A DNA stretch of 64,000 nucleotides from Bradyrhizobium sp. AZCC 1610 (GTDB taxonomy: Bacteria; Pseudomonadota; Alphaproteobacteria; Rhizobiales; Xanthobacteraceae), in contig NZ_JAZHRR010000001.1 in NCBI RefSeq assembly GCF_036924515.1, positions 6,295,001-6,359,000 of the forward strand, in the 5' to 3' direction. Positions 15,995-33,552 of the stretch are shown piece after piece (the stretch's first letter is position 1; every line of letters starts with the position of its first letter). Position numbers and translations under genes: made by a program. The notes beneath the pieces were generated by a model. It was not told the origin of the DNA. It made no database searches and saw only the letters and a program-made list of their open reading frames with translations.

Positions 15995-15996
15995 GG

Positions 15997-16884
15997 TCAG
16001 TTCCTGATGTCCATGGCGCTGCGCATGCCGTCGCTGAGCAGGTTGAAGCAGATCGACACCGCAAAGATCATGACGCCCGGCAGCGCCGCCACCCATGGGT
16101 TGACATAGATCGCGGTGCGCAGCGTGTTCAGCATCAAGCCCCATTCCGGCTCCGGCGGCTTGGTGCCGAGGCCAAGGAACGACAGGCCGGCGGCGAGGAT
16201 CATCGATACCGAGATCAATCCCGTAGCGTAGACGAAGATCGGCCCGAGCACGTTGCCGAGCATATGTACGCGCATGATGGTGAAGGGCCCGGCGCCGGAG
16301 GCGCGCGCGGCCTCGACGAAATCCATGTTACGTACACCGGTGGTGACGCTTTCCGCCACGCGGGTGATCTGCGGCACGAACACGATGGTCAGTGAGACGA
16401 TGGAGTTGACGATGCCCGCGCCGAGCGCGCCCGAGATCGCAATCGCCAGCAAGACCGACGGAAAGGCGTAGAACACGTCGATGGTGCGCATGATCGCGGT
16501 GTTGAGCCTGCCGCCGACGTAGCCAGCGACGAGTCCGAGCGACGTGCCGATCATGAAGGCAAGGATCACGGGCAGAATGCCTATTATCAGCGACAGCCGG
16601 CCGCCATAGATCAACCGCGCCAGCATATCGCGACCGAGTTCGTCGGTGCCAAGCGGATAATTCGGCGTGCCGATGTGGCGAAGCCTGCGGATCATCGACC
16701 CCTGGTAGGGATCGGCCAGCCCCAGCCACGGCGCGCACAGCGCGGAAAGAAAGATCAGCACCAGCACGAAAGCGCAGACCATGCTGACCTTGTCGCGCGC
16801 GATGCGGCGGCCGACGGTGGCCCAATAGCCGCGCGCCTTGGTGGCGGGCGCGGCTTGCAGCGCGGTATCCGACATCACAGTCAT
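15997..16884 (-). CDS. Peptide ABC transporter permease (DppC-like)
   Basis: A 295-residue inner-membrane permease with six hydrophobic segments. The N-terminal helix-loop typical of DppC/OppC precedes the BPD_transp_1 domain. The ATPase-contact loop is visible ([21 protein letters not shown], i.e. EAA-x3-G) near residue 190. [16 protein letters not shown] near residue 75 is also characteristic of this subfamily. The genes before and after are three and two bases away. Confidence 0.92.
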
Positions 16885-16887
16885 GAA

Positions 16888-17841
16888 TCAGCCCCGCTTG
16901 ATGCGCGGATCGATCGCGGCTTGCGCGATATCGACCAGCAGATTGAGGGCCACGAAGAACAGCGCCAGCACCAGGATCGTGCCCTGTAGCAGCGGCAGGT
17001 CGCGCTGGAAGATCGCCGAATTGAGCAACAATCCCGAGCCCGGCCATGAGAACACAGTCTCGATCAGGATCGAGCCGCCGAGCATGTAGCCGAGTTGCAG
17101 GCCCATCACCGCGAGCGCAGTCGGCGCGGCGTTCTTGATAACGTGTTTGAACACGTCGAGTTCGCGCAGACCCTTGGCGCGCAGCGCCTCGACGAAATCC
17201 TGCGAAAGGATGTCGCCGGTCAGCGCGCGCACGGTGCGGGTGACGATGCCCATCGGAATCACAGAGGTCGTGATTGCCGGCAGGATCAGATATTTCATGT
17301 GCTCCCAATCCCAGCCCCAGGCGCCGGAGCCGCCGGGACCGGCGCCGACCGCGGGCAACCAGTTGAGCTGCACCGAGAAGATGATGACCATCACCATGCC
17401 GAGCCAGTAATGCGGCACCGAGACGCCGGCAATCGCGATCGAGGTTGCGACCTTGTCGACCCAGGTGTCGCGGAAATAGCCGGCGATCAGGCCGAACAGC
17501 AGCCCGAGCGTGAAGCCGATCAGGGCTGCAGCAATCGCAAGCGTGACCGTGTTGCCGACCGCGCGCAAAACTTCCGTCAGCACCGGGCGGCCGGTGGCAA
17601 TCGAACTGCCGAGATCGCCATGGAGCGCCCGCCACAGCCAGAGGCCGAACTGCACCGGCAGCGGCCGGTCGAAACCGTAGGCGGTGCGCAGTTGCGCCGC
17701 GAGTTCCTGCGACGCATCCGCCGGCAGCACCGCGACCAGGGGATCCCCGGGCGTGATGTGCACCAGCAGGAAGCACACCAGCGCCACGCTGATCACGATC
17801 GGGATGACATAGACGATACGTCGGGCGATGTAGACGAGCAC
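16888..17841 (-). CDS. Peptide ABC transporter permease (DppB-like)
   Basis: A 317-residue permease of the DppB/OppB subfamily: a first membrane segment at residues 8-30, the periplasmic TPGDPLVAVLP stretch and a C-terminal domain with the EALRAKGLRELDVFKHVIKNA coupling loop. It is the first of the tightly packed permease-ATPase genes. A REP-like element lies between it and the binding-protein gene upstream, which may lower expression relative to that gene. Confidence 0.92.
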   Translation of the reverse strand: MLVYIARRIVYVIPIVISVALVCFLLVHITPGDPLVAVLPADASQELAAQLRTAYGFDRPLPVQFGLWLWRALHGDLGSSIATGRPVLTEVLRAVGNTVTLAIAAALIGFTLGLLFGLIAGYFRDTWVDKVATSIAIAGVSVPHYWLGMVMVIIFSVQLNWLPAVGAGPGGSGAWGWDWEHMKYLILPAITTSVIPMGIVTRTVRALTGDILSQDFVEALRAKGLRELDVFKHVIKNAAPTALAVMGLQLGYMLGGSILIETVFSWPGSGLLLNSAIFQRDLPLLQGTILVLALFFVALNLLVDIAQAAIDPRIKRG

Positions 17842-17880
17842 AGATCACCTAGTAATGGTAGCTACAACCAACTCTCATCC

Positions 17881-17995
17881 GTCATGGCCGGGCTTGACCC
17901 GGCCATCCACGTCTTGGCCGCGAGCAAAAAGTAAGACGTGGATACCCGGGTCATCTAGCGCGAAGACGCGCTTCGCGCTTCTGCCCGGGCATGAC
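17881..17995. repeat. Intergenic inverted repeat, 'GTCATGGCCGGGC' family
   Basis: The outer arms GTCATGGCCGGGC and GCCCGGGCATGAC enclose ATCCACGTCTT/AAGACGTGGAT and GCGAAGACGCGCTTCGCGC. Copies lie at 33563-33675 and, shortened, at 59889-59957 and 43171-43194. It is placed between the binding-protein gene and the permease genes of one operon, where a hairpin could set the ratio of binding protein to membrane complex. Confidence 0.8.
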
Positions 17996-18009
17996 GACTG
18001 AGATAGATG

Positions 18010-19668
18010 CTACGGCGCCATCGACACCGGCGAGAAGTCGACGAACCAGCTCTTCGGCTGCACAAAACCCTTGACCTTCGGGCTCATCGCGCGCGGCGAG
18101 ACGTCATGGGCGACGTAGAGAAACGCCGCATCGTCCACCGAGGCCGCGTGCAGATCGGCGAGCGCCGCGTCACGCGCTGCGGGATCGAAGGTCTGGCGCG
18201 CTTTCGTCACCAGTTCGTCGAACTTGGGATTGTTGATATAGCCCCAATTGTTCGAGACCGGCGGCGCCATCGACGACTGCAGGAAGCGCACCAGCGCGAA
18301 GAACGGATCCATCGCCGCGTAAGTGACGTTGGTGGCGTTGGCGCCGTTGGCGGTCGGATCCTTGGCGCCGCGGCGCCAGTTGGTGAACAGCGTGTTCCAC
18401 TCGATGACGTCGAGCTGGACGTCGAAGTAGCATTCCGCCAGCGCCTGCTGCAGATATTCGTTCATCGGCAAAGGCTGCATCTGGCCCGATCCCGACGCCG
18501 AGGTCTGGGTCTTCACCGTCAGCTTCTTGTTCGGGCCGTAGCCTGCTTCCTGCATCAGCTTTTGGGCTGCCTTCAGGTCATACTTGATCTCGAAGGTCGG
18601 TTTTCCCCGCCAGGGATGGCCGGGCTCGAAGGTGCCGGTCGCCGGCACCATCAGGCCGGCAAGCAGGCCCTCCTTGAGGCCTTCACGATCGACGCAGAGA
18701 TTGGCGGCCTTGCGGACGCGGATATCGTTCCACGGCGAGCCTTCGACGCGCGAGAACTGCCACGGCCAGACATGCGGGGATTCGTTGGCCTTGAGCTGGA
18801 AGCCGCGCTGCTTGATTTCCTTGACCGCATCGGGTGCCGGTGCTTCCACCCAGTCGACCTGGCCGGAGAGCAATGCTGCAGTGCGGGCATTGGCCTCCGG
18901 CATCGGCAGCAGCACCATCCGGTCGACCTTGGGCACGCGGGCCTTGTCCCAATAGCCCTCGTTCTTCACGAGTTCGAGCCGTTCGCGCGGCGTGAATTTC
19001 GACATCTTCCAGGGGCCGGTGCCCGAGGCGTCCCGGGCGAACGCAGCCCACGCGGCCTGCGATTTTGCCTTGGCGTCGGCGCCTTCAGCCTTGTCATAAA
19101 ACGCCTGCCACTTGGTCGGGCTCGCCATGAACAGATTGGTCAGGTTGATCGGCAGGAAACTGTCCGGCTCCTTGGTGGTCAATTCCACCGTCATGTCGTC
19201 GATCTTGCGGGCGGAGGCCAGCGTTGGCATGCGCGAGGCGGTGACGCCGACCTGGCTGGCGTCGAACTGCGGCGCATCCTGCTTCAGCACCTTTTCGACG
19301 TTCCAGACCACGGCGTCGGCGTTGAACGGCGAGCCGTCGTGGAAGGTGACGCCGGGACGAAGCTTGAACGTCCATTTCTTCTTGTCGGCCTCGTCGACCT
19401 TCCATTCGGTTGCGAGCCCGGGGATCATGACGCTCGCCTTGTCGGCCGAGGAAAGGTCCCACAGCGTCAGGGCGTCGTACATGGTGAGGCCGGTGAAGCG
19501 GTTGCCCTCGAACCCCTGATCGGGCTGGCCGAGGGTGCGCGGAATATCCGCAGCCGTCATGCCGATCCGCAGCACCGTTTCGGCGCTTGCGAGTTGCGGC
19601 AATCCGACCACCAGCGCCGTCGCCAGCAGCCACGCGGTGGCCGTCTTCTTGGATTTCTCGTTACGCAT
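18010..19668 (-). CDS. Peptide-type ABC transporter substrate-binding protein (family 5)
   Basis: A 552-residue periplasmic SBP_bac_5 protein. A signal peptide (hydrophobic run then LASA-ET) ends near residue 29 from ATG 19668. Typical landmarks follow: KKKWTFKLRPGVTFHDG, GTGPWKMSKF and a VRKAANLCVDREG loop. ATG 19668 has AAAGGGA upstream; the first in-frame TTG at 19689 overlaps that site. It is paralogous to the divergent protein at 19873 (both begin ETV-x-R-x-G and share ADIP-x-T-x-GQPD). A perfect sigma-54 promoter sits at 19719-19735. Confidence 0.93.
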   Translation of the reverse strand: MRNEKSKKTATAWLLATALVVGLPQLASAETVLRIGMTAADIPRTLGQPDQGFEGNRFTGLTMYDALTLWDLSSADKASVMIPGLATEWKVDEADKKKWTFKLRPGVTFHDGSPFNADAVVWNVEKVLKQDAPQFDASQVGVTASRMPTLASARKIDDMTVELTTKEPDSFLPINLTNLFMASPTKWQAFYDKAEGADAKAKSQAAWAAFARDASGTGPWKMSKFTPRERLELVKNEGYWDKARVPKVDRMVLLPMPEANARTAALLSGQVDWVEAPAPDAVKEIKQRGFQLKANESPHVWPWQFSRVEGSPWNDIRVRKAANLCVDREGLKEGLLAGLMVPATGTFEPGHPWRGKPTFEIKYDLKAAQKLMQEAGYGPNKKLTVKTQTSASGSGQMQPLPMNEYLQQALAECYFDVQLDVIEWNTLFTNWRRGAKDPTANGANATNVTYAAMDPFFALVRFLQSSMAPPVSNNWGYINNPKFDELVTKARQTFDPAARDAALADLHAASVDDAAFLYVAHDVSPRAMSPKVKGFVQPKSWFVDFSPVSMAP

Positions 19669-19718
19669 ATGCAGCAATCCCTTTTTCAACTTGGGGTGAC
19701 TAATTCTTATGCAAACTT

Positions 19719-19735
19719 ATGCAACGCCTGTGCCA
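19719..19735 (-). promoter_or_regulatory. Sigma-54 (RpoN) promoter for the minus-strand binding protein
   Basis: On the minus strand the sequence reads TGGCAC-AGGCG-TTGCAT, an exact match to the -24/-12 consensus (TGGCAC, five bases, TTGC). Transcription would begin near 19709, about 40 bases before ATG 19668. The correct strand and position upstream of the gene support it. Confidence 0.8.
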
Positions 19736-19759
19736 AAGGACGCGCTTCCTTCGAGGCTA

Positions 19760-19776
19760 TGCGTTTGCGCGCGCAA
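19760..19776. promoter_or_regulatory. Palindrome between the two sigma-54 promoters (candidate activator site)
   Basis: A perfect 12-bp palindrome, TTGCGCGCGCAA, spans 19765-19776 within an imperfect TGCG/CGCA inverted repeat from 19760. It is nearly central between the two -24 elements (19735 and 19821). Sigma-54 promoters need an upstream enhancer-binding activator, so this is a candidate shared site. It does not match the NtrC consensus closely. Confidence 0.35.
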
Positions 19777-19820
19777 CTCCTTGTGAGCGCGCATACAGGA
19801 GCATGTCAGATGCCTGGTCT

Positions 19821-19837
19821 GGCACCAAGCTTGCATT
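19821..19837 (+). promoter_or_regulatory. Sigma-54 (RpoN) promoter for the plus-strand binding protein
   Basis: The sequence reads TGGCAC-CAAGC-TTGCAT, an exact -24/-12 match. The predicted start of transcription is near 19847, about 26 bases before ATG 19873. With the promoter at 19719-19735 it forms a divergent pair. Confidence 0.8.
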
Positions 19838-19872
19838 TTCCAGCTCCAACCTGCCCCGATGGAGCTTAATTC

Positions 19873-21486
19873 ATGCGCACCCGAAATTCGATGCTTCTTC
19901 CTGCCGCAACTCTGGCAGTCGGCCTGGCTCTTGGCCTGTCCGCGATTTCGGCGCAGGCGGAAACCGTTGTGCGCTACGGCATTTCGATGGCGGACATCCC
20001 GCTGACCACCGGCCAGCCGGACCGCGGCGCCGGGGCCTACCAGTTCTCGGCTTACACGATCTACGATCCCCTGGTCGCCTGGGAGATGGACGTATCAGAC
20101 CGGCCCGGCAAACTGGTGCCGGGCTTGGCCACCGAGTGGAAGATCGACGAGGCGGACAAGAAGAAATGGCGCTTTGCCTTGCGCAAGGGCGTCAAGTTCC
20201 ATGACGGCAGCAGCTTCAATGCCGACGCGGTGATCTGGAATCTCGACAAGGTGCTCAATGACAAGGCACCGCAGTTCGACAAGCGCCAGAGCGCGCAGGT
20301 GAAAACCCGCCTGCCTTCAGTGGCGAGCTACGCCAAGATCGACGATGCGACCATCGAGATCACGACCAAGGCTGTCGATTCCTTCTTCCCATACCAGATG
20401 CTGTGGTTTCTGGTGTCCAGCCCGGCGCAGTATGAAAAGCTCGGCAGGGACTGGGACAAGTTCGCCAGCCAGCCCTCCGGCACCGGGCCGTTCAGGCTGA
20501 CCAAACTGGTCCCGCGCGAACTGGCCGAGCTGACCAAGAACGCCGACTATTGGGACAAGAAGCGGATAGCGAAGGCCGACAAGATCGTACTGATTCCGAT
20601 GCCGGAAGCGCTGACGCGGACCAATGCGCTGTTGGCGGGCCAGGTCGATCTGATCGAGACGCCGGCGCCGGATGCGGTGCCGCAGCTCAAATCCGCCGGC
20701 ATGAAGATCGTCGACAACGTCACGCCGCATGTCTGGAACTATCATCTGAGCGTGCTGCCCGGCTCGCCCTGGACCGACATCCGCCTGCGCAAGGCGCTGA
20801 ACCTTGCGATCGACCGCGAGGCCGTGGTCGGCCTGATGAACGGCCTCGCAAAACCCGCCAAGGGCCAGGTCGACCCGTCGAGCCCGTGGTTCGGCAAGCC
20901 CTCCTTCGAACTCAAGTACGATGTCGCGGCCGCGAAGAAGCTGGTGCAGGAAGCCGGCTACTCGAAGGAAAAGCCGCTGAAGACGACCTTCATCATCGCG
21001 CAAGGCGGCACCGGGCAGATGTTGTCGCTGCCGATGAACGAATTTTTGCAGCAGAGCTTTAAGGAAATCGGCATCGAGATCGACTTCAAGGTGGTCGAGC
21101 TTGAGACGTTGTACACGGCATGGCGCAAGGGCGCAGCCGACGAGATGAATGCCGGCATCACCTCGAACAACATCGCCTATGTCACGTCAGACCCGCTCTA
21201 CGCGATCGTCCGCTTCTTCCACTCCGGCCAGATCGCGCCGGTCGGCGTCAACTGGGGCGGCTACAAGAACCCGAAGGTCGATGCACTGATCGACGAGGCC
21301 AAGCAAACGTTCGATGTCGCCAAGCAGGACGAGCTGTTGGCGCAGGCACACGCAGAGATCGTCGACGACGCCACGCTGGTGTGGGTGGTGCACGACACCA
21401 ACCCACACGCGCTGTCGCCGAAGGTGAAGAAGTTCGTGCAGGCGCAGCACTGGTTTCAGGACCTGACGACGATCGGGCTGGAGTAG
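19873..21486 (+). CDS. Peptide-type ABC transporter substrate-binding protein (family 5, paralogue)
   Basis: A 537-residue periplasmic SBP_bac_5 protein with a signal peptide ending at ISAQA-ET near residue 30. It keeps KKKWRFALRKGVKFHDGSS, GTGPFRLTKL and RLRKALNLAIDREAVV. It has no permease or ATPase genes of its own, so it probably feeds the transporter encoded by the divergent operon and extends its substrate range. It is driven by its own sigma-54 promoter. It is clearly a duplicate of the 18010-19668 gene, with diverged binding residues. Confidence 0.92.
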   Translation: MRTRNSMLLPAATLAVGLALGLSAISAQAETVVRYGISMADIPLTTGQPDRGAGAYQFSAYTIYDPLVAWEMDVSDRPGKLVPGLATEWKIDEADKKKWRFALRKGVKFHDGSSFNADAVIWNLDKVLNDKAPQFDKRQSAQVKTRLPSVASYAKIDDATIEITTKAVDSFFPYQMLWFLVSSPAQYEKLGRDWDKFASQPSGTGPFRLTKLVPRELAELTKNADYWDKKRIAKADKIVLIPMPEALTRTNALLAGQVDLIETPAPDAVPQLKSAGMKIVDNVTPHVWNYHLSVLPGSPWTDIRLRKALNLAIDREAVVGLMNGLAKPAKGQVDPSSPWFGKPSFELKYDVAAAKKLVQEAGYSKEKPLKTTFIIAQGGTGQMLSLPMNEFLQQSFKEIGIEIDFKVVELETLYTAWRKGAADEMNAGITSNNIAYVTSDPLYAIVRFFHSGQIAPVGVNWGGYKNPKVDALIDEAKQTFDVAKQDELLAQAHAEIVDDATLVWVVHDTNPHALSPKVKKFVQAQHWFQDLTTIGLE

Positions 21487-21623: not shown

Positions 21624-23852
21624 CTACTTCGTCAGCAGCGCGAAGGCGCCGTTCCAATCTTCCGGCGGCGGGTTTTCGAGGTAGCCGCGGATTCGCGCCT
21701 CGTACAAATTGTAGAGCAGCTCCAGCGAATTTGCGTCGTCGGTCTTGCGGCCGCGCGCGATTGCCGCGAGCGCGCCTTCCCAGTCGCGGTTGCGATAACA
21801 GGCGAGCATCTCGATCGTTAGATTCCGCAGGCGCTGGAAGCGGCCGGACTGCGCGGTGTCCTCGCGGCCGGCGATGGCATAGATCACCTCGGGCTCCTTC
21901 TTGCCCTTCACCATGATGAAGTCGAGTTCGAGGATCGCGAACTTTTCCTTGACCGCCAGCGCGGTCCTGGAGCCGACGATGATCGGGAATCCGTATTCCT
22001 TGGACTGCCCTTCGAGGCGCGAGGCCAGATTAACGCTATCGCCGAACACCGAATAGTTGAACTTGAGATCGGATCCCATGTTGCCGACCACGCAGATGCC
22101 GGTATTGAGCCCGATGCCGGCATTGAGCGGAATGAACGGGCGCCCCTCTTCCTTTGCCTCCTGCTCCCGCACCTGATTGAGTTGGTCGACGTGCTCCAGC
22201 ATGTCGAGCGCCGCCTCGCAGGCGTTGAGCTCGTGATCCTTGTCATCGAGCGGCGCGTTCCAGAACGCCATGATGGCGTCGCCCATATATTTGTCGATAT
22301 AGCCCTTACGCGCGAGGATCGCGTTGGTGAGCGGTGTCAGGAAGCGATTCATCAGCGCGGTGAGGCCCTGTGGATCGTTCTTGTAGGTCTCCGAGATCGA
22401 GGTGAAGCCGCGCATGTCGGAGAACATGATGGTCATCTCGCGCTCCTCGCCGCCGAGCACCAGCTTTTCAGGCGACTGCGCGAGCTGTTCGACCAGCACT
22501 GGCGACATGTATTGCGAGAAGGCGCCACGGATCTGCTTGCGCTGCGCCTGCTCGCGCACGAAGCTCGCAAAGATCAGCGTGAGATAGATCGCCGTCGTCG
22601 ACATCAGGGGGTAGGTGAAGTCGATCAAGAGCCGGTGCTGTGTGTAGAAATACACCGACGTTCCGATCAGGGCGGTCGCAAACGCTGCACCGAGGGCAAC
22701 CAGCGTGACCGGTCCGAACAGCGGCGCAAACGCGATCACGAGAAGCCCGAACAGAAGCGCGGTCGCGAACTCGATGGCGATGCCGTAGATCGGCGTCGAG
22801 ATCACCTCGCCGGTCAAGGTGGTCTCGAGCACCTGGGCGTGGATCTCCACACCAGGCATGGCGCGCGATACCGGCGTGGTCTTGATGTCATTGAGGCCGA
22901 CCGCCGAGGTGCCGATCAGCACCAGCTTGCCGGCGATCATGTCGGGCGCGACATTTTTCTCCAGCACATTGATCGCGGGGACATAGATGGAGGCGTCGTT
23001 GCGGGCATAATGAACCCAGATCTGGCCATTGTGGTCGGTTGGAATCTGAAACCCCTTGACGCCGATGCTCTTGATGCCGGCCTTTTCGGCCTTGATCAGG
23101 ATCGTGCCCGAGCCGCTGGCGACCCGCAGCATCTCGAACGTGAGCGACGGCATGGTCTGGCCCTGCGCCTGCATCATCATCGGCACCCGCCGGACGATGC
23201 CGTCGCGCTCGGGCTTGATCGTGAACAGGCCCCGCCCGGCGGCGGCGTGCTCCAGCACCGGCACATTGCGCAACAGGCCGGGGAAATCGAACATGAAGCG
23301 CTGCGGCTCCTCGCCCAGCATCGCAAGCCCGGTGACCGGCAGCGTCTTGTCGAGCGCCGTGATTTCCGCCGGCAGCCCGGATTCGCCGAGCACGACGCGG
23401 GAAGCCTTTATGGCGTCAGCAAAGACCTGGTCGTTGCTCGGAAGCGCGCGCAGCTTGGCGCGGGTTTCCGGGTCGAGATTGCGGAAGGTGTCGGCAGCAA
23501 AGGCAGGGTTGAGACGGTCGGGCTCCGAAAACACCGCGTCGAACGCGATCACCACCGCGCCGAGCCGCGTCAGTTCGGTGATGAGATCGGCGATGCGGGT
23601 GCGCGGCCATGGCCACTGCCCGAGCTTCTCCAGGCTCTTGTCGTCGATATCGACGATGGTGACCGGCCGCGCGGTCTTCTTGCGCGGGTCGATGCGCTGG
23701 AAAGCGTCAAAAGTCCTGACACGAATTTCCTCGACCGGGGCCGGATCGGCGACGCGAAGGGCGGCGAACCCGATCAGCAGCGCAAGGCACAGCAGCCGGG
23801 CATAGCCGATGCGCCGCTTGAACCACCTTCGCAATACCCGCAGTCGTTTCAT
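21624..23852 (-). CDS. CHASE2-domain adenylate/guanylate cyclase
   Basis: A 742-residue membrane sensor. After an N-terminal membrane segment (about residues 15-33) comes an extracytoplasmic CHASE2 domain (about 35-340), three membrane segments (about 350-445), then a class III cyclase domain from about 470 to 650. The metal Asp is in MTIMFSDMRGFTSISE, and the second metal/transition-state region is FGDSVNLASRLEG near 604. It should convert ATP or GTP to a cyclic nucleotide in response to a periplasmic cue. It lies 77 bases downstream of the giant FecR/VCBS gene on the same strand, so co-transcription is plausible. Confidence 0.92.
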   Translation of the reverse strand: MKRLRVLRRWFKRRIGYARLLCLALLIGFAALRVADPAPVEEIRVRTFDAFQRIDPRKKTARPVTIVDIDDKSLEKLGQWPWPRTRIADLITELTRLGAVVIAFDAVFSEPDRLNPAFAADTFRNLDPETRAKLRALPSNDQVFADAIKASRVVLGESGLPAEITALDKTLPVTGLAMLGEEPQRFMFDFPGLLRNVPVLEHAAAGRGLFTIKPERDGIVRRVPMMMQAQGQTMPSLTFEMLRVASGSGTILIKAEKAGIKSIGVKGFQIPTDHNGQIWVHYARNDASIYVPAINVLEKNVAPDMIAGKLVLIGTSAVGLNDIKTTPVSRAMPGVEIHAQVLETTLTGEVISTPIYGIAIEFATALLFGLLVIAFAPLFGPVTLVALGAAFATALIGTSVYFYTQHRLLIDFTYPLMSTTAIYLTLIFASFVREQAQRKQIRGAFSQYMSPVLVEQLAQSPEKLVLGGEEREMTIMFSDMRGFTSISETYKNDPQGLTALMNRFLTPLTNAILARKGYIDKYMGDAIMAFWNAPLDDKDHELNACEAALDMLEHVDQLNQVREQEAKEEGRPFIPLNAGIGLNTGICVVGNMGSDLKFNYSVFGDSVNLASRLEGQSKEYGFPIIVGSRTALAVKEKFAILELDFIMVKGKKEPEVIYAIAGREDTAQSGRFQRLRNLTIEMLACYRNRDWEGALAAIARGRKTDDANSLELLYNLYEARIRGYLENPPPEDWNGAFALLTK

Positions 23853-23929
23853 GCTGTCTGGATATCACGCATCGACGGATCAGGCATGCTAGATTCGCGC
23901 GCAAGGCTGCTCTACCCGACTGCCGCGGA

Positions 23930-26900
23930 TCAGATATTACCGCTGCCGCCCGGGTGAAGAATGAAGTCACTCATATGCAGGTTCGCCTTGGCGACGTTCG
24001 ACAGCAGGCCATCGAACTGTATCAACGTGTCCACGCCGGTCTGCGCGACCGCGCTGCTGGTGAGCCAGGATTGGAAGGAAGCCGCATTGTCGGGAGTGAA
24101 CGGGAGATTCGTTAGAAGATCGATCTTGTCCTGCCCGGGCAGGAAATCAGCGATCGTGTCGTTGCCCATGTGCTCGGCGAACACGAATTGGTCGGCGCCA
24201 ACCCCGCCCTTCAGGATATCGTCGTGCGCGGTCGAGAAGATCACGTCGTTGCCCGAGGTCGCAAACGACGAAAGGTTCATCGTCCCGTTGAACTGGTCTT
24301 CGACCACGGTGAACTGGATGGTGTTGATAATCGGCGCGTCGTTCTTGGCGCCTACGCTGTACACCCCACTACTGAATGCCGTCGTACCGCCTGTCGTCGA
24401 CGGCATTGCAATGATCGAGCGGGAGGTCGAGCCATCGGTGCCATCCCAGGCAACGAAGGTCAGGTGCTCGGTATCGCCGCTTCCGGAGCCGCTGAAGCGC
24501 ACGTTGTCGCCTGCGGATAGCAACAATGCCTCGCCGGGGGCCAGTTCGATCGCGATCCACTCGCCGGCCGAGATCTCATATTGCCAACTTCCCCCTGCGC
24601 TACCGTTGTCGACTCCGGTGATAGCGATGCCAGGCGGGTCGCCGTCGGGATCGCTAACCGTGAGCTTGACGTTGCCGAAGAAGAACTGACCGTCGAAGAC
24701 GGCGATCCCATTGGTGTTCGCCAACTGTGCCTGTTTTGCGGATACACCCGATTGCACGACCGGCGCGTGGTTGGCGCCCAGTACCGTCAGACTTGCGGTA
24801 TCCGAGGTCGAGGAAAAAGCCGTGGAGCCGCCCGATGACGATACATCAGCCGTCGTCCCGCTGGTTCCCGTCGTCTGATCCCACGCCACGTAAGTGAGCG
24901 TGGCCGCTCCCCCGTCCGTTCCGTCCGGGACGAACTTGACCACGTCGGTTGCAGCCAACAGCAAGGCCGATGTCGTCGATACCGCAGGGAAAGCAAAAAA
25001 GGTGTTTCCGTCCGCCGAATATTCCCAGTGACCGTTGGTGCCGGTCGTGGAAGTGATCGCGATGCCTTGCACCGCGCCTTTATCAACATCGGCAATGCTC
25101 GTTCCGACGAACGAAGCAACGGTCTGGCCGGCATTCGTAGCGTCGTCCTCCATAACCGTCGCCAGCGTCGGGTTCGATACGGTCACCACCGGCGCGTCGT
25201 TGGTGCCGGTGATGGTGACGGCGAAGGTCTTCGACGTCGCGCCGCCGTCGCCATCGTCGATCGAAATCGTGTAGGTCAGCGTTAGCGTTTCGCTCACGGC
25301 CAGATAATCGAACGCTGTCGAGGCTGCGGCGAATGACAGTTCGACCGAGCCGGACGACGAACCGGAGTTCTTGGTCACCCCGCCCGGCGTGACCAGCGCC
25401 ATCAGCGCCGCCTGGCCGAGTGCAAGGCCCGTAGTGGCACCGGTCACCACCACGCCGGTGATGTCAGCGCTGTGGCCGACATCGGCCAGGTCGACGTCTG
25501 TAAACGTCACCGGGATGGTCGCGGTCAGCGCTGAGCTATTGGTCTGCTCGGTCAGATTCTTTTGCGCGATATTGGCGATAACAGGTGCGTCCTCGGTGCC
25601 GGTAATGGTGACCTCGATCGTGCGATCGACGGTGCCTCCATTGCCGTCCTCGAGCGTAATCGTGAACTGCTCGACCTTGGTCTGGCCCTTTGCGAGATAC
25701 TCGACGGCGGAAGCCGCTACGCTGTAATTCCAGTTAATGGTGTCGCCCACGCCATCGACGGTGTCCGGGGTCACCAGGGCGGTCAGCGCCCCGAGCGCAC
25801 CCGCGGAAGCCGTGACGGTCGGACCGACATTGTGGGTATCCGTGAGATCGACGTCCGCCAGCGCAATGGTGCCGCTGTCGGTGAGATCGCCCACCGGCAC
25901 AACCAGCTCGGTCACCGCGCTGGTTACGTCCGCCGTTGCAACCACAGGGTTATCATTGGTGCCCGTGATGGTGACGACGAAGGTCTGCGTCGTCACGCCG
26001 CCGTCGCCATCGTCGATCGCAACGGTGTAGGTGAGCGTCAGGACCTCGTCCTTTGCGAGATAGTCGAACACCGTCGAACCAGCGGAGAACGCCAGCTCGA
26101 CAGAACCGGACGACGAGCCGGAATTCTTGGTCACCGCACCCGGCGTCACCAGGGCTTTCAGCGCCGCTTCGTCGAGTGCAAGGCCCGTGGTGGTGCCGGT
26201 CGCGACCGCTAGGGTGACCGTAGCACTGTGGCCGACGTCGGTCAGGTCGACGTCGGCGAACGTCACGGGGATCGTCGCAGTCAGCGCCGCGGTGTCGGCC
26301 TGCTCGGTCAGGTTCTTTTGCGCGATATCGGCCATAACAGGCGCGTCGTCGCTGCCAGTGACGGTGACGACGAAGGTCTGCGGCGTCACGCCACCATCGC
26401 CGTCGTCGATCGCGACCGTGTAGGTCAGCGTCAGGACCTCGCCCTTCGCCAGATAGTCGAACGCCGTCGAAGTGGCGGAGAACGACAGCGCGACCGAGCC
26501 GGAGGATGAGCCGGAATTCTTCGTCACCGCGCCTGGCGTCACCAGCGCGATCAGCGCGGCCTGGTCGAGCGCAAGGCCCGTGGTGGTCCCGGACGCCACC
26601 GCGCCGGTGATATCAGCGCTGTGGCCGACATCAGAAAGGTCGAGATCGGTGAAAGTGACAGATATTGTCGTTGTCAACGGCGCGGTATCGGTTTGCTCGG
26701 AGAGGCCCTGCTGCCCGATAGCCGCGATCAGTGGCGCGTCGTTGCTGCCGTCGATGGTAACGACAACGTCCTGCGACGTGACGCCGCCATGATCGTCGTC
26801 GACCTCTACGGTGTAGGTCAGCGTGACCGTCTCGCCATCGGCGAGGTAGTCGAAATAACTGTCCGGCGCCGAGAACGACCAGCTCTTCGAGCCCGGCACG

Positions 26901-29854
26901 CCATCGGTGGAATCGGTAAGCGCCCCCAGCGACAGCCAACTGAGCTGGACCGTGCCGTTGGCGAGGCCCGTCATCATCACGCCGGAGGCATTGACGCTGG
27001 CGACCTTGACGTCATGCGTATCGGTCAGATCGGCATCGCTGAACGTGATCGCACCGCTTGCGGTATCCGGCGTCGCCGAATCGTGGGTGTCGGCACGTTC
27101 GGTGATGGCTGCGGTCTGTGGGTCGCTGGTAATTTCAGCCGTATCATTGCTGCCGGTGACGGTGACGGTGATCGGCTTGGCCACCACGCCGCCATGCCCG
27201 TCATCGACGGTTGCGGTGTAGGTCAGCGTCAGGATTTCGCCATCGGCAAGGAAATCGAACGCACCGTCGGCGACGCTGTAGCTCCAGCTCGCCGAACCGT
27301 TATTGGTATTGCCGGGAGCCTGCACCACGGCCAGCGGCTCATCAACCGCGGCGATCGCAGCAAGTTGCGTGGCGGTGAGCTGTGAGGTGACGTCGACGTC
27401 GTAGGGGTTCAGGTAGGTGAACGCAGTGAAGGCGGCGCTCGCCACCGGCCGGTCGGTCAGGTCGACGTCGATGAAGCTGATCGTGCCGGACGCCGTATCG
27501 AGCGCGGTGGACCCCGTCGGGTTCGGCTGGTTGACGTTCGAAAGTTCGGCGAAGGCATCGCTGGTGGTGTCGATGCTCGGCACGTCGTTGGTGCCGATGA
27601 CGACGACGTCGGCGCCCTTGATCGAGACGGTGATCGGCGTGGAGATGACGCCGCCGTGGCCATCGTCAACCTGGGCGACGTAATTGAGGGTCAGCGTCTC
27701 GCCCTTGGCGATGAAGTCGAATGCGCTGTCCTCGATGCTGTAGGTCCAGGTCGCCGAGCCGTTGTGAGTGTTTCCGGCCGCCTGCACCACGCTCAGCGGC
27801 ACCTCGACGGCCAGGATCGCTGCCAGCTGGGCCGGCGTCAGCGTCGCGGTGACGTCATTGCCCTCCGCATCGTAGTACCGGAACGGATCGGTCGTGGAGA
27901 TCGCCGCGCTGACGACGGGACGGTCGGTCAGGTCAACGTCGGCGAAGGTGACGGTGCCGGTCACGGTATCGACCGCCGCATTGCCGGTGCCGATCCGCTC
28001 CGTGATCGTGCCACCTGTCGCGGACAGCGTCGGCTTGTCGTTGGTGCCGGTAACGACGATCGAAAACGGCACGAACGTCGTCTCGTTGCTGGGCGCGTAA
28101 TTGTTGTCGACCCGCGCCATGTAGGTCAGCGTCAGCGTCTCGCCGGAGGCAAGAAAGTCGAACGCGCCATCGGCAATGGAGTAGGTCCAGGTCGCCTTGC
28201 CGGTGTTCTTGCCGTTGGGGTCCTGCACCACGGCCAGCGGCACTTCGACCGCCTTGATCGCGGCCAGTTGCGCCGCTGTCAGCGTCGCGGTGACGTCGAC
28301 CTTCTGCGAATTCGCGTAGACAAAGGAGGAAAACGCGGCCTGGACGCTCGGAACGTCGTCGGGGTTGATGTCGGCATAGCTGACGGTGCCGGAGATACTG
28401 GCGAGCGTCGGGCTCGCGGTCACATCGATCCGCTCCGCAACGGCGCCGCCGTTCGCGTCAGCCTTCGGCGGCCCGGCAATGTGAATAGCCGAGGGACCGG
28501 GATCTCTGCTCGGAAGAGCCGCAGGCTTGTCCGGGACGTTGACGAACTGAAGCGTGACCGGGACGAAGTCGTTGCTGGCCAGCTTGAGGAACGACGTTTG
28601 CGGATCGATCGAGCCGTTCGAGTTGTTCGTGAGCTTGGTATTCGGGTTGTTCAGGTCGGTGAACTTCAGCGAGAACACATCGCTGATGATCTTCTGCGCG
28701 TCGGGCGACAGTTGCACTGATGACTGGAAGCTGACCGTGCCCTGGCCATTGATGATCGTCTGGGTGCCGGCCCGGTTGACGGTTGCGATCGGCGTCAGCG
28801 TGGTCTTGTCGAACAGGATGTAGGAACCGGTGGTGCCGTCGGGCTCGACCAGCACCTGGAATTTCGCCGGCGGCGCACCGCCCTGCGACGGCACCTCGAA
28901 ATCGATCTCGACCAGCACCGCGGTGCCGCGGATGCCCATGGTCGCGACTGGCGTGTCGACCTTCATGTCGCCCTTCTTGGCGGTGGCGCCGGCGACGAAC
29001 GAGATGGTGCCCTGCACCAGGCTGAGCAGCGATTTGTTGTCCGACCCGTTGGGGTCGTAGACCATTTCGTTCAGCACCATCTTGGCGTTCGAGGCGAGGC
29101 CGAACACGGTGCCGTCGATGAAGGTGATGCCGAGCGTCGAATCGGAGCCGGACTGGACCACGTCGCCTTTATGGACGGTGTCGCCCTGGTTCAGGATGAT
29201 CGAGACGCCGTTGCGGATCGCGGTCGCGTTACCCGCGAGCTTGGTGACATGGCCGATGACCGCAGGCGCGACGCTGGCGCTGCCGTCGGCCTGCGCGAAC
29301 TGGATGTGCCCGGCCAGCGCGTTGACGATGTCACCGGTGAGGTGGGCGCCGTCGGGCGAAGCCAGCGCGGCGCGCTTCTCGCCCCTGAAGTAATCATTCA
29401 GGACGAGTTCGCGATCGCCATCGGCGAGGATCAGGTCGACGCCCGACCGCTTGAAGTTCCCGTGGAACAGCAGATGGGCATCAGAAATAATGATCGCGTC
29501 TGTCGGCGCGTGTGTCGAAACCTGGTCGACATGGAACTTGCCGGGAGACGAAAGATGGCCGTGCGGCGACAGCAGAGGCCCGAGGCCAATATCCGCGCCG
29601 GAAAAAGGGTCGAGGTCACCCGATCCGAATTTGCCGGCGTAATTCAATGGGCACCAATCTAAATGGTTAAGAAGTATGAAATTTCCCTGCAGGGTTTCAT
29701 ACCACGCAGGTAGGGAACAAAAAAGTACGCGCGCCGCACACACCCTTAATATGGGTAAGTCTGCAACAGGACCGAAAAGGTCCGGAAAAGTGTCGGGCGA
29801 AAGTGTGGCAGGGAAAAGGCCGGCCTTAACTCGGACTGATCGAAAAATGGGCAC
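23930..29854 (-). CDS. Giant FecR/VCBS-repeat surface protein, probable type I secreted adhesin
   Basis: About 1,974 residues if started at GTG 29854. Residues ~70-200 are acidic; ~205-330 form a FecR domain (GDTVHKGDVVQSGSDSTLGI, then MKVDTPVATMGIRGTAVLV). About eight cadherin-like VCBS repeats follow (~478-1550, each closing near 'Y-x-V-x-DD-x-GG' and 'T-GTND-x-P'), then two diverged repeats and an RTX-like C-terminus (DDILKGGVGADQFVFAEH, residues ~1870-1890) of the kind read by type I secretion. The true start is uncertain: the first ~69 residues look non-conserved, and TTG 29647 (NYAGKFGSG) is an alternative. There is no Sec signal. The neighbours are a CHASE2 cyclase and a LapG-like protease. 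Confidence 0.88.
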   Translation of the reverse strand: MPIFRSVRVKAGLFPATLSPDTFPDLFGPVADLPILRVCAARVLFCSLPAWYETLQGNFILLNHLDWCPLNYAGKFGSGDLDPFSGADIGLGPLLSPHGHLSSPGKFHVDQVSTHAPTDAIIISDAHLLFHGNFKRSGVDLILADGDRELVLNDYFRGEKRAALASPDGAHLTGDIVNALAGHIQFAQADGSASVAPAVIGHVTKLAGNATAIRNGVSIILNQGDTVHKGDVVQSGSDSTLGITFIDGTVFGLASNAKMVLNEMVYDPNGSDNKSLLSLVQGTISFVAGATAKKGDMKVDTPVATMGIRGTAVLVEIDFEVPSQGGAPPAKFQVLVEPDGTTGSYILFDKTTLTPIATVNRAGTQTIINGQGTVSFQSSVQLSPDAQKIISDVFSLKFTDLNNPNTKLTNNSNGSIDPQTSFLKLASNDFVPVTLQFVNVPDKPAALPSRDPGPSAIHIAGPPKADANGGAVAERIDVTASPTLASISGTVSYADINPDDVPSVQAAFSSFVYANSQKVDVTATLTAAQLAAIKAVEVPLAVVQDPNGKNTGKATWTYSIADGAFDFLASGETLTLTYMARVDNNYAPSNETTFVPFSIVVTGTNDKPTLSATGGTITERIGTGNAAVDTVTGTVTFADVDLTDRPVVSAAISTTDPFRYYDAEGNDVTATLTPAQLAAILAVEVPLSVVQAAGNTHNGSATWTYSIEDSAFDFIAKGETLTLNYVAQVDDGHGGVISTPITVSIKGADVVVIGTNDVPSIDTTSDAFAELSNVNQPNPTGSTALDTASGTISFIDVDLTDRPVASAAFTAFTYLNPYDVDVTSQLTATQLAAIAAVDEPLAVVQAPGNTNNGSASWSYSVADGAFDFLADGEILTLTYTATVDDGHGGVVAKPITVTVTGSNDTAEITSDPQTAAITERADTHDSATPDTASGAITFSDADLTDTHDVKVASVNASGVMMTGLANGTVQLSWLSLGALTDSTDGVPGSKSWSFSAPDSYFDYLADGETVTLTYTVEVDDDHGGVTSQDVVVTIDGSNDAPLIAAIGQQGLSEQTDTAPLTTTISVTFTDLDLSDVGHSADITGAVASGTTTGLALDQAALIALVTPGAVTKNSGSSSGSVALSFSATSTAFDYLAKGEVLTLTYTVAIDDGDGGVTPQTFVVTVTGSDDAPVMADIAQKNLTEQADTAALTATIPVTFADVDLTDVGHSATVTLAVATGTTTGLALDEAALKALVTPGAVTKNSGSSSGSVELAFSAGSTVFDYLAKDEVLTLTYTVAIDDGDGGVTTQTFVVTITGTNDNPVVATADVTSAVTELVVPVGDLTDSGTIALADVDLTDTHNVGPTVTASAGALGALTALVTPDTVDGVGDTINWNYSVAASAVEYLAKGQTKVEQFTITLEDGNGGTVDRTIEVTITGTEDAPVIANIAQKNLTEQTNSSALTATIPVTFTDVDLADVGHSADITGVVVTGATTGLALGQAALMALVTPGGVTKNSGSSSGSVELSFAAASTAFDYLAVSETLTLTYTISIDDGDGGATSKTFAVTITGTNDAPVVTVSNPTLATVMEDDATNAGQTVASFVGTSIADVDKGAVQGIAITSTTGTNGHWEYSADGNTFFAFPAVSTTSALLLAATDVVKFVPDGTDGGAATLTYVAWDQTTGTSGTTADVSSSGGSTAFSSTSDTASLTVLGANHAPVVQSGVSAKQAQLANTNGIAVFDGQFFFGNVKLTVSDPDGDPPGIAITGVDNGSAGGSWQYEISAGEWIAIELAPGEALLLSAGDNVRFSGSGSGDTEHLTFVAWDGTDGSTSRSIIAMPSTTGGTTAFSSGVYSVGAKNDAPIINTIQFTVVEDQFNGTMNLSSFATSGNDVIFSTAHDDILKGGVGADQFVFAEHMGNDTIADFLPGQDKIDLLTNLPFTPDNAASFQSWLTSSAVAQTGVDTLIQFDGLLSNVAKANLHMSDFILHPGGSGNI
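25200..26740 (-). repeat. Near-identical VCBS repeat units inside the giant gene
   Basis: Three coding units of roughly 390 bp, at about 25200-25590, 25960-26350 and 26350-26740, are much more alike than the other units. Each carries an ALTATI/PLTTTI-PVTF-DVDL-DVGHS start and KNSGSSSGSVELSF core at the protein level, with long shared DNA runs. Such similarity suggests recent duplication or gene conversion. Boundaries are approximate. Confidence 0.7.
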
Positions 29855-30325
29855 GGCCTTCCCGCGGCATAAAGATGAGCAGTCATAATACTTTACCTTT
29901 GCCGCAGCGCAGCGTGTGACGCTTCCTGAGGGACGCGACAGCCGCCTGAAGGCTGATCACTTCCCGTCCACTGGAAGCCGTCATCCCTTCGAAGCATCCA
30001 GGACAGGGCGCAATCGCGCCACCGGAGCGATCCTGCGAGCAAGGTTAATTCGGTGACACTGTGACCCTTTCGCAACCGTAAGCTCTGCGCGGTGTCCCCA
30101 GCCCTTCCGGGATATCCGAGCGGCTTTGATGAGCGCCGATCTGAGTGGATCGATAAAATTAGCTGCAACTGGCAAGGCCGCGTTCACGCTGCCTCGCAAA
30201 CTTCCGATAGGCCTCCCCTCGTTTTAAACGGATCAAAAGTGCCGTTGCCCATCCTGCCCATTCTGAAATGATCTGGGCGCGAGCAGGCAGAGCAAGCCCG
30301 CCGATACCCGGACAAGGGGTGTCAG
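29855..30325. other. Divergent control region between adhesin and LapG-like genes
   Basis: A 471-bp gap separates two divergent genes and should hold both promoters. No perfect sigma-54 site or clear operator was found. An imperfect inverted repeat ACCC-TTAATAT-GGGT lies at about 29742-29756, inside the first codons of the longest adhesin reading, and would be leader DNA if translation starts at 29647. Small open frames here lack support. Confidence 0.4.
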
Positions 30326-31126
30326 ATGGGATTGTTAGTCTATGCACGCGCATGGCGTGCGGGCATTGTCGCGTGTGGCCTGGCATGGTTCGGGCCAGCC
30401 GACCTGCGGGCCGAGACAGCGAAGCCGTCCACGCCGGCGGAGCTGATTCAGCAATCGGCCGAACCGTTCGGGCTTGCCGCATCCTCTCTCTCCAGCGGCG
30501 GCCTGCGCGACAAATGGCTCGGCGTGCAACGCCGGCTCGACGACGAAATGGTGCAGCTTGCGCTCTGCGAAGGCGACCGTGACGGCTGCGTGTCTCCGGC
30601 CGCGCTGAAATTCCTCGACATCGTCGACGACGCCCGGTTGCGCGAAGGCCGCGCCCGCCTCGGCGAAATCAACCGCGCCATCAATCTCACCATCCGGCCA
30701 ATGAGCGACCTCGCCCAACACGGCCAGATCGACGCCTGGACGCCGCCGCTCGCAACGCTCGCGCGTGGCGGCGGCGACTGCGAGGATTATGCGATTGCGA
30801 AATTCATCGCCTTGCGCCGCGCCGGCCTAGCGCCCGACGATCTCAGGATCGTGGTGCTGCACGATACCATCCATGGCGAGGACCATGCGGTGGCTGCCGC
30901 GCGGCTGGACGGGCGCTGGCTGACGCTCGACAACCGCCACATGGCGATGATCGAGGATACCGACGTCAGAAATTTCCGGCCGACATTCGTGATCGGCCAG
31001 CACGGCGTGATGCGATACGCCGATGGCCCTCTGCTCGCCGACACCTCGGACAATAATTCTGTGGCTTCGCTCGTCGTGAGTTCTCTGGCCGGCTCCGCGA
31101 CCCGGCCATTCGAACGCGTCGACTGA
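30326..31126 (+). CDS. LapG-like periplasmic cysteine protease (BTLCP family)
   Basis: A 266-residue bacterial transglutaminase-like cysteine proteinase. A signal peptide (residues 1-31) exports it to the periplasm. The Cys-His-Asp triad is visible: Cys in GGGDCEDYAIAKFIALR (about residue 152), His in IHGEDHAV (about 188) and Asp in LTLDNRHM (about 203). In Pseudomonas, LapG cuts the adhesin LapA to free it from the cell. The gene is divergent to a giant type-I-like surface protein, its probable target. ATG 30326 has an AAGGGG site. Confidence 0.88.
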   Translation: MGLLVYARAWRAGIVACGLAWFGPADLRAETAKPSTPAELIQQSAEPFGLAASSLSSGGLRDKWLGVQRRLDDEMVQLALCEGDRDGCVSPAALKFLDIVDDARLREGRARLGEINRAINLTIRPMSDLAQHGQIDAWTPPLATLARGGGDCEDYAIAKFIALRRAGLAPDDLRIVVLHDTIHGEDHAVAAARLDGRWLTLDNRHMAMIEDTDVRNFRPTFVIGQHGVMRYADGPLLADTSDNNSVASLVVSSLAGSATRPFERVD

Positions 31127-31153: not shown

Positions 31154-31371
31154 GCGACGACTGACAACAATCTGCTTTCCTTGCCTGATCTTCCTTGTCC
31201 TCGCGGCCGATGGTGCGCCGCAGCCGCTATGCCAGCTTGCATTCGTTCGGTGAAAACATGACGAGACAAATTTTCTCTTTTTCATTTCGCGCCCCGCATT
31301 GATTGACGCGATCCTTCTCACCGGCATAGCATTCCGGCAGATCCGCTAGAGATCACTGGGAGGTGAATGAG

Positions 31372-33552
31372 ATGACACGTTTGCCGCGCGTTGATTCTGC
31401 TTGCCGTTTGTTTCCTGAAATTGCCGTTACTTCCCGTCGATCGGCGCGCCTTGCACAGACCGCGATCGCAATCGGGCTGGGCCTGACGCTATCCTGCAGC
31501 GCTGCACTGGCGCAGAGCCCTGCCAAGGGATCGCCCGAGCACATCAAGGCCGTCACCTCGGCGGTCGACGGCGCATCGATCAAGGCCAATACCGCGACCT
31601 CGAACGACTGGCCGACCATCGGCCTCGACTATGCCGAGACGCGCTTTTCCAAGCTCAACCAGATCAACGCCGACAACGTCAAGAAACTTGGGCTGGTGTG
31701 GAGCTATCCGCTCGAATCCTCCCGCGGCGTCGAGGCGACGCCGGTCGTGGTCGACGGCATCATGTACCAGACCGCATCATGGAGCGTGGTGCACGCCATC
31801 GACGCCCGCACCGGCAAGCGGCTCTGGACCTTCGATCCCAAGGTCGACCGCGAGAAGGGCTACAAGGGCTGCTGCGACGTGGTCAACCGCGGCGTCGCGC
31901 TCTGGAAGGGCAAGGTTTATTTCGGCGCCTATGACGGGCGGCTGTTCGCGCTCGACGCCGCCACCGGCAAGGTGGTCTGGGAAAAGGACACCATCGCCAG
32001 CAAGGAGCACTCCTACACCATCACCGGTGCGCCGCGCGTGTTCAACGGCAAGGTGGTGATCGGCAATGGCGGCGCCGAATTCGGCGCGCGCGGCTACGTC
32101 ACCGCCTATGACGCCAAGACCGGCAACCAGGCATGGCGCTGGTTCACCGTGCCCGGCGATCCGTCCAAGCCATTCGAGGATGAATCGATGGCGGCCGCAG
32201 CCAAGACCTGGGATCCGGCCGGCAAATACTGGATCAATGGCGGCGGTGGCACGGCCTGGGATACCATCACCTTCGATCCCGACCTGAACCTCGTCTATAT
32301 CGGCACCGGCAACGGTGCGCCGTGGAATCAGAAAGTCCGCAGTCCGTCCGGCGGCGACAACCTGTATCTGTCCTCGATCGTCGCGCTCAATGCCGATACC
32401 GGAAAGTATGCCTGGCACTATCAGGAAACGCCCGGCGACCATTGGGACTACACGGCTACCCAGCCGATGATCCTGGCGGACATCAACATCGACGGCGCGC
32501 CGCGCAAGGTGATCCTGCATGCGCCGAAGAACGGCTTCTTCTTCGTCATCGACCGCACCAACGGCAAGTTCATCTCGGCAAAGAACTTCGTCGACGTGAA
32601 CTGGGCGACCGGCTACGACGCCAACGGCCGGCCCATTGAGATAAAGGAGGCGCGCAGCGACGAAGCCTATGACAGCATTCCGGGTCCGGCCGGTGCCCAC
32701 AACTGGCATCCGATGTCGTTCAATCCGCAAACAGGTCTTGTCTACATTCCGGCGCAGGGCATCCCCACCAACCTCACGCCGGAAAAGGCCTTCAAACACA
32801 ATGCCGTTGAACCCGGCAAATTCGCCAGTGCGACGGGCTGGAATATCGGCTTCCTGCTGAACGCTACGCCTCCCAAGAACCCGGCCTTCGGACGTCTGGT
32901 AGCCTGGGATCCGGTCAAGCAGAAGGAAGCCTGGCGCGTCGAGCACGTGGCGCCGTGGAATGGCGGCACCCTTACCACCGCGGGCAACCTGGTGTTCCAG
33001 GGTACGGCCGACGGCCGCTTCGTCGCCTACAACGCCACATCGGGCGAGAAGCTCTGGGAAAGCCCGACCGGCACCGGCGTGGTCGCGGCGGCTTCGACCT
33101 ACATGCTCGACGGCAAGCAGTATGTCTCGATCGCGGTCGGCTGGGGCGGCGTGATCGGCCAGTGGATTCGCGCCACCGAACTGCAGAGCCCCGGCACGGT
33201 CTACACCTTCGCGATCGACGGCAAGGCGCCGCTGCCGGCCTTCGTGAAGTACCAGACCGAGGGGCTGTTGAAAGGCGTGAAGTATGACCCGAAGGATATC
33301 CCTGAAGGCACCGCCATCTATGTCGCCGCCTGCGCCGCCTGCCACAGCGTGCCCGGCGTCGACAACGGCGGCAACATCCGGAACCTCGGCTATGTCGCGC
33401 CCGAAACCATCACCAACCTGAAGGACATCGTGTTCAAGGGCCCGTTCCGCGACCGCGGCATGCCCGACTTCACCGGCAAGCTGAAGGAAGCGGATATCCC
33501 GAAGCTGCAGGCCTTCATCCAGGGCACCGCCGACGCGATCCGGCCGAAGTGA
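31372..33552 (+). CDS. PQQ-dependent quinohaemoprotein alcohol dehydrogenase
   Basis: A 726-residue periplasmic enzyme oxidising alcohols with PQQ and passing electrons to a fused cytochrome c. A long signal peptide ends near ALAQ (about residue 45). The eight-bladed propeller has the adjacent-Cys pair GCCD near 166 and the catalytic Asp in DHWDYTATQPM near 356. The haem motif CAACH is at about 654-658 with a later GMPDF Met ligand. Thr at the second position after the catalytic Asp suggests Ca2+, not lanthanide, use. ATG 31372 has GGAGGT eight bases upstream; GTG 31363 overlaps it. Confidence 0.93.
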   Translation: MTRLPRVDSACRLFPEIAVTSRRSARLAQTAIAIGLGLTLSCSAALAQSPAKGSPEHIKAVTSAVDGASIKANTATSNDWPTIGLDYAETRFSKLNQINADNVKKLGLVWSYPLESSRGVEATPVVVDGIMYQTASWSVVHAIDARTGKRLWTFDPKVDREKGYKGCCDVVNRGVALWKGKVYFGAYDGRLFALDAATGKVVWEKDTIASKEHSYTITGAPRVFNGKVVIGNGGAEFGARGYVTAYDAKTGNQAWRWFTVPGDPSKPFEDESMAAAAKTWDPAGKYWINGGGGTAWDTITFDPDLNLVYIGTGNGAPWNQKVRSPSGGDNLYLSSIVALNADTGKYAWHYQETPGDHWDYTATQPMILADINIDGAPRKVILHAPKNGFFFVIDRTNGKFISAKNFVDVNWATGYDANGRPIEIKEARSDEAYDSIPGPAGAHNWHPMSFNPQTGLVYIPAQGIPTNLTPEKAFKHNAVEPGKFASATGWNIGFLLNATPPKNPAFGRLVAWDPVKQKEAWRVEHVAPWNGGTLTTAGNLVFQGTADGRFVAYNATSGEKLWESPTGTGVVAAASTYMLDGKQYVSIAVGWGGVIGQWIRATELQSPGTVYTFAIDGKAPLPAFVKYQTEGLLKGVKYDPKDIPEGTAIYVAACAACHSVPGVDNGGNIRNLGYVAPETITNLKDIVFKGPFRDRGMPDFTGKLKEADIPKLQAFIQGTADAIRPK

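Follow-up and report, generated by a model that had tools for sequence, protein, structure and literature searches.

A conserved rhizobial neighbourhood of a FecR-domain giant protein, a LapG-like protease and a CHASE2 cyclase, with a possible route from adhesin to cyclic AMP

The locus described here resembles two groups of known systems. The LapA/LapG/LapD system of Pseudomonas fluorescens comprises a giant protein with type I secretion system (T1SS) genes and a C93 protease with a catalytic triad and a calcium motif. The passages cited here describe the DvhA/DvhG/DvhD system of Desulfovibrio vulgaris, in which a LapG-type protease can be controlled by DvhD, a dCache/HD-GYP receptor of cyclic di-GMP (c-di-GMP) unrelated to LapD (PMC13090378), and Bradyrhizobium DDxP genes whose T1SS clusters also contain BTLCP- and LapD-like genes (PMC7730722). 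In the second group, likewise as far as the cited passages go, a FecR-domain protein is encoded beside or near a CHASE2 receptor. In the BiofilmReg operon of Burkholderia, FecR adjoins a CHASE2 histidine kinase, and CHASE2 is said to be a domain with no known signal (PMC5192318); in Sinorhizobium meliloti, the FecR gene smc02177 lies near the cyclase gene cyaD1, and a CyaD1 that lacks CHASE2 produces cyclic AMP constitutively (PMC5498481). Among the papers searched, none linked CHASE2 with type I secretion, or FecR domain, adhesin and type I secretion. The locus with features of both groups belongs to Bradyrhizobium sp. AZCC 1610 and lies in a stretch of 64,000 nucleotides (the window; contig NZ_JAZHRR010000001.1, positions 6,295,001 to 6,359,000), which is part of a single 7.75-Mb contig.

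Three neighbouring open reading frames (ORFs) encode a CHASE2 class III nucleotide cyclase, a giant FecR/VCBS/RTX protein and a C93/BTLCP LapG-like protease (Table 1). A preliminary description, made from the sequence alone, had named these neighbours and placed a FecR domain near the N-terminus of the giant, and both observations are borne out by the ORFs and the Pfam matches (FecR, E 7.2e-9, amino acids (aa) 231-316). Its comparison with LapA/LapG is supported by the RTX/VCBS giant, by the conserved catalytic and calcium residues of the C93 protease and by the T1SS transporter and adaptor genes of the window, which it had missed; its statement that the window holds no LapD-like gene also stands. 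The locus shares with the P. fluorescens system a giant accompanied by T1SS genes, with export being predicted here, and the C93 protease. Unlike in that system, however, the transporter is of the PrtD type instead of the LssB type, a CHASE2 cyclase is linked, and no LapD, no [TAP]AAG site and no match to the LapA retention model were found. Unlike the Dvh system, the locus has a cyclase in the neighbouring position and lacks a linked c-di-GMP receptor. The gene identities, the conserved linkage and the catalytic residues are a solid list of parts; the wiring is a hypothesis.

The linkage is well conserved. The protease, giant and cyclase genes lie on one contig, with less than 12 kb from protease to cyclase, in 31 of 36 genomes of the same genus, and therefore the neighbourhood is not due to chance. 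Each of these 31 genomes has the giant and the cyclase on the same strand and the protease gene oriented divergently to that of the giant, with 681-843 bp separating the matches of these two. In four further genomes (G012, G016, G030, G035), the genes are spread over different contigs or the giant match is absent from the site, and G006 is rearranged (L101, L102), with the protease 237 bp from the cyclase. The giant of G006 has moved elsewhere, where its neighbours are another C93 gene and two additional FecR genes, one of which is interrupted by a stop. Among the matches listed, the N-terminal region of the giant is also encoded in 56 of 80 named protease loci, some of which come from the same genomes as the same-genus set. 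The family survey covered 149 genomes, its counts including related ones. The threshold for cyclase matches was E <= 1e-250, which left 48 of about 79 rows, and that for giant matches was E <= about 1e-45; anything weaker, for example the partial cyclase at the edge of a contig in G122, was dropped. The cyclase was found in 48 genomes, the giant in 44 and both in 42. Within 25 kb of the 48 cyclases, giant and C93 gene occur together in 25 cases, the giant only in five, C93 only in four and neither in 14; nine of these 14 genomes encode a giant elsewhere. Among the giant-only genomes, G098, G101, G149 and G198 have no C93 match at E <= 1e-14; in G201, a match lies on a different contig.

The pairing of FecR and CHASE2 extends beyond the family. 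A cyclase match (E <= 1e-60) was present in 14 of 24 genomes from other families of the same order, and in eight of them a FecR match, at distances measured by hand, lies at most 11 kb away (G041, G050) or within 1.6 kb (G036, G037, G039, G047, G049, G052). None of the eight has a C93 match on that contig. The FecR domain is thus the most widespread partner of CHASE2, and the pairing looks older than the arrival of the protease; the two may be in contact. The Burkholderia and S. meliloti pairs agree in this arrangement, but there FecR belongs to a small protein (LysM-FecR or a single protein), the Burkholderia output is a histidine kinase instead of a cyclase, and the cited passages describe neither a giant adhesin nor a C93 protease (PMC5192318, PMC5498481).

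The preliminary description had proposed, from the FecR domain and a cyclase partner, a differently wired sense-and-release system with a CHASE2 cyclase in place of a visible c-di-GMP receptor; this is read here as a cyclase that replaces LapD and directly controls the protease through the periplasm. The partnership of FecR domain and CHASE2 cyclase agrees with their conserved pairing. Control of the protease is not supported: against it speak the FecR-CHASE2 and giant-cyclase pairs that occur without a C93 gene nearby, and also the nature of the cyclase, since an enzyme is an output and not a receptor, and its Pfam matches include no c-di-GMP-binding domain. This explanation would fit the outcome of the genome-wide search for LapD that the preliminary description had called for. 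PF16448 gave one match, a MoxY-like histidine kinase, and NF045673 gave 27, of which the best reached 160 bits (cut-off 1020) and none combined the periplasmic part with GGDEF-EAL in one protein; no LapD was thus found by the two profiles. PF16448 matches occur in 34 of 60 relative genomes, and the three proteins examined (L003, L129, L130) were all MoxY-like kinases. A receptor of a non-LapD build is possible, by analogy with DvhD, which is also a precedent for such control (PMC13090378). Because C93 alone accompanies four of the 48 family cyclases, and the protease adjoins the cyclase without a giant in G006 and L039, a direct link between cyclase and protease stays conceivable, but it is considered improbable.

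The cyclase itself has strong matches to CHASE2 (1.5e-58; 198.8 bits, cut-off 26.3) and Guanylate_cyc (1.2e-21). The residues of a class III adenylate cyclase are found in its sequence, where we take D479/D525 to be the metal-binding Asp pair, K521 the purine-binding Lys and N608/R612 the Asn/Arg of this class. The nearest solved relatives are adenylate cyclases, and the product would be cyclic AMP (cAMP). The membrane topology is a prediction, its helices being taken from a model with a predicted local distance difference test (pLDDT) score of 65; at this score, a fold search with the CHASE2 model, which returned no match at E <= 0.001, is uninformative.

The start codon of the giant is probably TTG 29647 rather than a far GTG; counted from this TTG, the protein has 1905 aa, the same length as entry P0004. 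It contains seven VCBS stretches (NCBIfam). Both the profile and the fold of FecR are found in its N-terminal domain, and in a structure search the predicted model was akin to a signalling domain and to an adhesin anchor. The anchor fold is that of 5ix9, which we take to be a Marinomonas adhesin, and the domain also matches 5ix9 in sequence (3e-5). On the basis of the model, the domain would be related to the anchoring domain of large adhesins, as in Lap-type adhesins. The retention module of LapA (NF033682) was absent from the NCBIfam matches of the giant up to E 1; it was matched only by a small FecR paralogue of another genome (1.9e-6, under the cut-off). The variable linker that follows the helix closing the anchor may contain the protease cut site. 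The pattern TD-x-[VIT] after the FecR helix was rejected as a cut site: it occurs in 42 of 57 giants, is missing from that of the window and also catches other stretches.

Related FecR genes occur as well. Small FecR proteins of about 230-300 aa (e.g. G000:C1:7705305-7705601) are 50-60% identical to its FecR domain, and in several relatives the gene of such a small protein and another FecR ORF, of 1000-1800 aa, point away from each other. In G196 (C1:1567899-1568801, 6872310-6873059), a second large ORF carries the N-terminal module of the giant too, at a distance of about 21 kb from a further C93 gene; the N-terminus of the giant at the usual site is more divergent there.

The preferred reading is that CHASE2 reads the FecR anchor and that the protease releases the adhesin, to which a probability of roughly 0.45 is given. 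The five genes would then form a cell-surface adhesin module. The RTX/VCBS giant would be exported by the linked PrtD/HlyD pair together with a TolC-type outer membrane protein encoded elsewhere in the genome, and its N-terminal FecR-type domain would remain folded in the periplasm and plug the channel, so that the adhesin would be retained at the cell surface. The CHASE2 region, predicted to lie in the same compartment, would contact this anchor and sense its state, which would set the cAMP level. Removal of the anchor by the C93 protease would free the adhesin and end or change the signal. The most complete form of this reading, a family-wide and LapD-independent circuit from adhesin to cAMP, in which cAMP would report on retention or release of the adhesin and the LapG-type protease would reset the system, is more tentative and, taken as a whole, doubtful.

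Several observations weigh against the preferred reading. The model of the FecR domain reaches a pLDDT of 71, and the other four models reach 53.5-56.9. The LapG site [TAP]AAG occurs nowhere in the giant, and in 16 sequences chosen by hand, no motif distinguished giants that have a protease neighbour from those that lack one. The protease and cyclase neighbours without a giant in G006 and L039, the four family cyclases with C93 only and the 14 with neither partner count on the same side, and so do six of the 14 cyclase genomes from other families, in which no FecR match lies near; one of these (G058) has a C93 match approximately 5 kb away from a partial cyclase match. Moreover, according to the passages cited, smc02177 is dispensable for the perception of the shoot signal in S. 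meliloti (PMC5498481), which makes it less likely that FecR is a general or simple ligand of CHASE2. The response of CyaD1 to a plant signal without its FecR neighbour would also suit another explanation, namely that the genes form a co-regulated secretion and release cluster with no physical link, in which the cyclase senses some other cue (e.g. of the plant or the envelope) through CHASE2 and acts only by cAMP-dependent transcription. A gene neighbourhood is by itself no proof of contact, and the repeats and length of the giant differ greatly among relatives, with the cyclase being conserved. However, FecR-CHASE2 pairs recur in several families with different outputs, which suggests a more direct relation, and co-regulation on its own is regarded as rather unlikely. 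The lack of a Clr box in the window and in the giant/protease intergenic regions tells against co-regulation as well as against the preferred reading.

The release step of the preferred reading depends on the protease. Its C93 domain (Pfam, E 6.2e-16) contains the Cys-His-Asp triad and the acids of the calcium site, and C152-H187-D202 and D151/E153/D154 are unchanged in all 66 rows of an alignment of close relatives, in which L074 and L116 are one locus. Its match to the LapG model NF045674 (4.2e-16, 58.8 bits) is under the equivalog cut-off of 320. The genome has two C93 genes, the other encoding a 209-aa protein. The protease would cleave the linked giant; the alternative that it has another substrate, or that the adhesin is released without cleavage, seems very unlikely. 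It could account for the missing canonical site of the giant, given that LPAA[G/D] follows a helix in 8/8 aligned giants of a second Lap system, but in 55 of the 59 named loci L021-L079 among the matches listed, protease and giant are neighbours (three of the other four end at a contig edge), and the relocated giant of G006 again has a C93 gene beside it.

This second, classical Lap-type system of relatives has the order TolC-LssB-HlyD-protease plus a giant (annotated in L084). It was seen in L084, in part of L082-L100 and in G003, G004, G006, G010, G023, G027, G163 and G180, with transporter and adaptor matches at 16 loci. It shares with the window locus a C93 protease (42-51% identical to P0003), a T1SS and a giant adhesin; unlike the window giant, its giant had no FecR match in the NCBIfam scan of L084. 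The front and FecR domains of the window giant showed no profile match to the N-terminal region of the second system (hhalign probability 4.7 and 0.2). G124, outside the alignment of its giants, shows LPAAG. The protease of this system likewise scores under the NF045674 cut-off (73.4 bits). In a protease tree, 16 second-system proteases form a clade with support 1.0, and the clade with the window protease has 67 tips and a lower support of 0.84. No C93 gene of the second system is present in this genome, and no LapD-like gene was found by motif beside the second system in the loci scanned, in contrast to the clusters described for Bradyrhizobium DDxP genes (PMC7730722).

The T1SS genes of the window are separated from the cyclase by an oligopeptide ABC transporter/amidase cluster (12322-21486). 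The window transporter is 77% identical to that of L116, which sits between giant and cyclase. Of the 36 same-genus genomes, 34 have orthologues of at least 82% identity; in 30 of these 34, the orthologue is on the contig of the cyclase and 0.6 to 15.5 kb from it. The order giant, ABC, HlyD, cyclase was found in loci of Tardiphaga, Rhodopseudomonas and Afipia (L058, L059, L074-L076, L078, L079) and in twelve family stretches picked by hand from match coordinates (L103-L106, L109-L116), which makes 18 distinct loci because L074 and L116 are the same contig. L118 has transporter and cyclase without the giant. Downstream of the protease, a pyrroloquinoline quinone-dependent alcohol dehydrogenase fused with a cytochrome c domain is encoded (31363-33552, + strand). 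TGT-N10-ACA, a pattern looser than the Clr box, occurs in 36 of 56 homologous and mutually related intergenic regions, including that of the window, against 7 expected from single-base shuffles.

Table 1. Positions of the features discussed, numbered from the first letter of the window.
Feature	Position	Strand	Basis or remark
HlyD-type T1SS periplasmic adaptor, 436 aa	7877..9187	-	TIGR01843, 2.2e-114; start set from relatives
PrtD-type T1SS ABC transporter, ORF of 613 aa	9184..11025	-	TIGR01842, 1.6e-220, above cut-off
CHASE2 class III nucleotide cyclase, 742 aa	21624..23852	-	Pfam
Class III cyclase catalytic domain, aa 471-659	21876..22442	-	Pfam; D479, K521, D525, N608, R612 present
CHASE2 region, aa 30-368	22749..23765	-	Pfam; predicted periplasmic, flanked by one N-terminal and three later membrane helices (model)
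Giant FecR/VCBS/RTX protein, ORF	23930..29854	-	Pfam, NCBIfam, relatives; likely start TTG 29647
RTX-like calcium repeat near C-terminus of giant, aa 1865-1889	24188..24262	-	HemolysinCabind, 0.001, 19.4 bits, under cut-off 23
Helix closing the anchor, aa 384-401	28652..28705	-	Model helix 270-287; variable linker follows
FecR-type/anchoring domain of giant, aa 197-391	28682..29266	-	Pfam; structure matches 6ovk, 5ix9
Conserved front domain of giant, ahead of FecR domain, aa 115-184 of ORF	29303..29512	-	Alignment; model residues 1-70; matches no known family
Divergent intergenic region, giant/protease	29648..30325	.	Divergence kept in relatives
C93/BTLCP LapG-like protease, 266 aa	30326..31126	+	Pfam, NCBIfam; N-terminal signal-like segment, judged by eye
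Catalytic C152, H187, D202 and DCED calcium motif (151-154)	30779..30931	+	Invariant in 66/66 subfamily A rows

Known systems for adhesin release leave it to a cytoplasmic messenger whether or not the protease cleaves, whereas here the linked enzyme would make a messenger. Since the anchor also has the fold of a signalling domain, the signal could run from the outside in. The module provides CHASE2 with a candidate partner that can be tested, connects FecR domains with adhesin anchors through their fold, and points to a cAMP route by which rhizobia might attach to surfaces.
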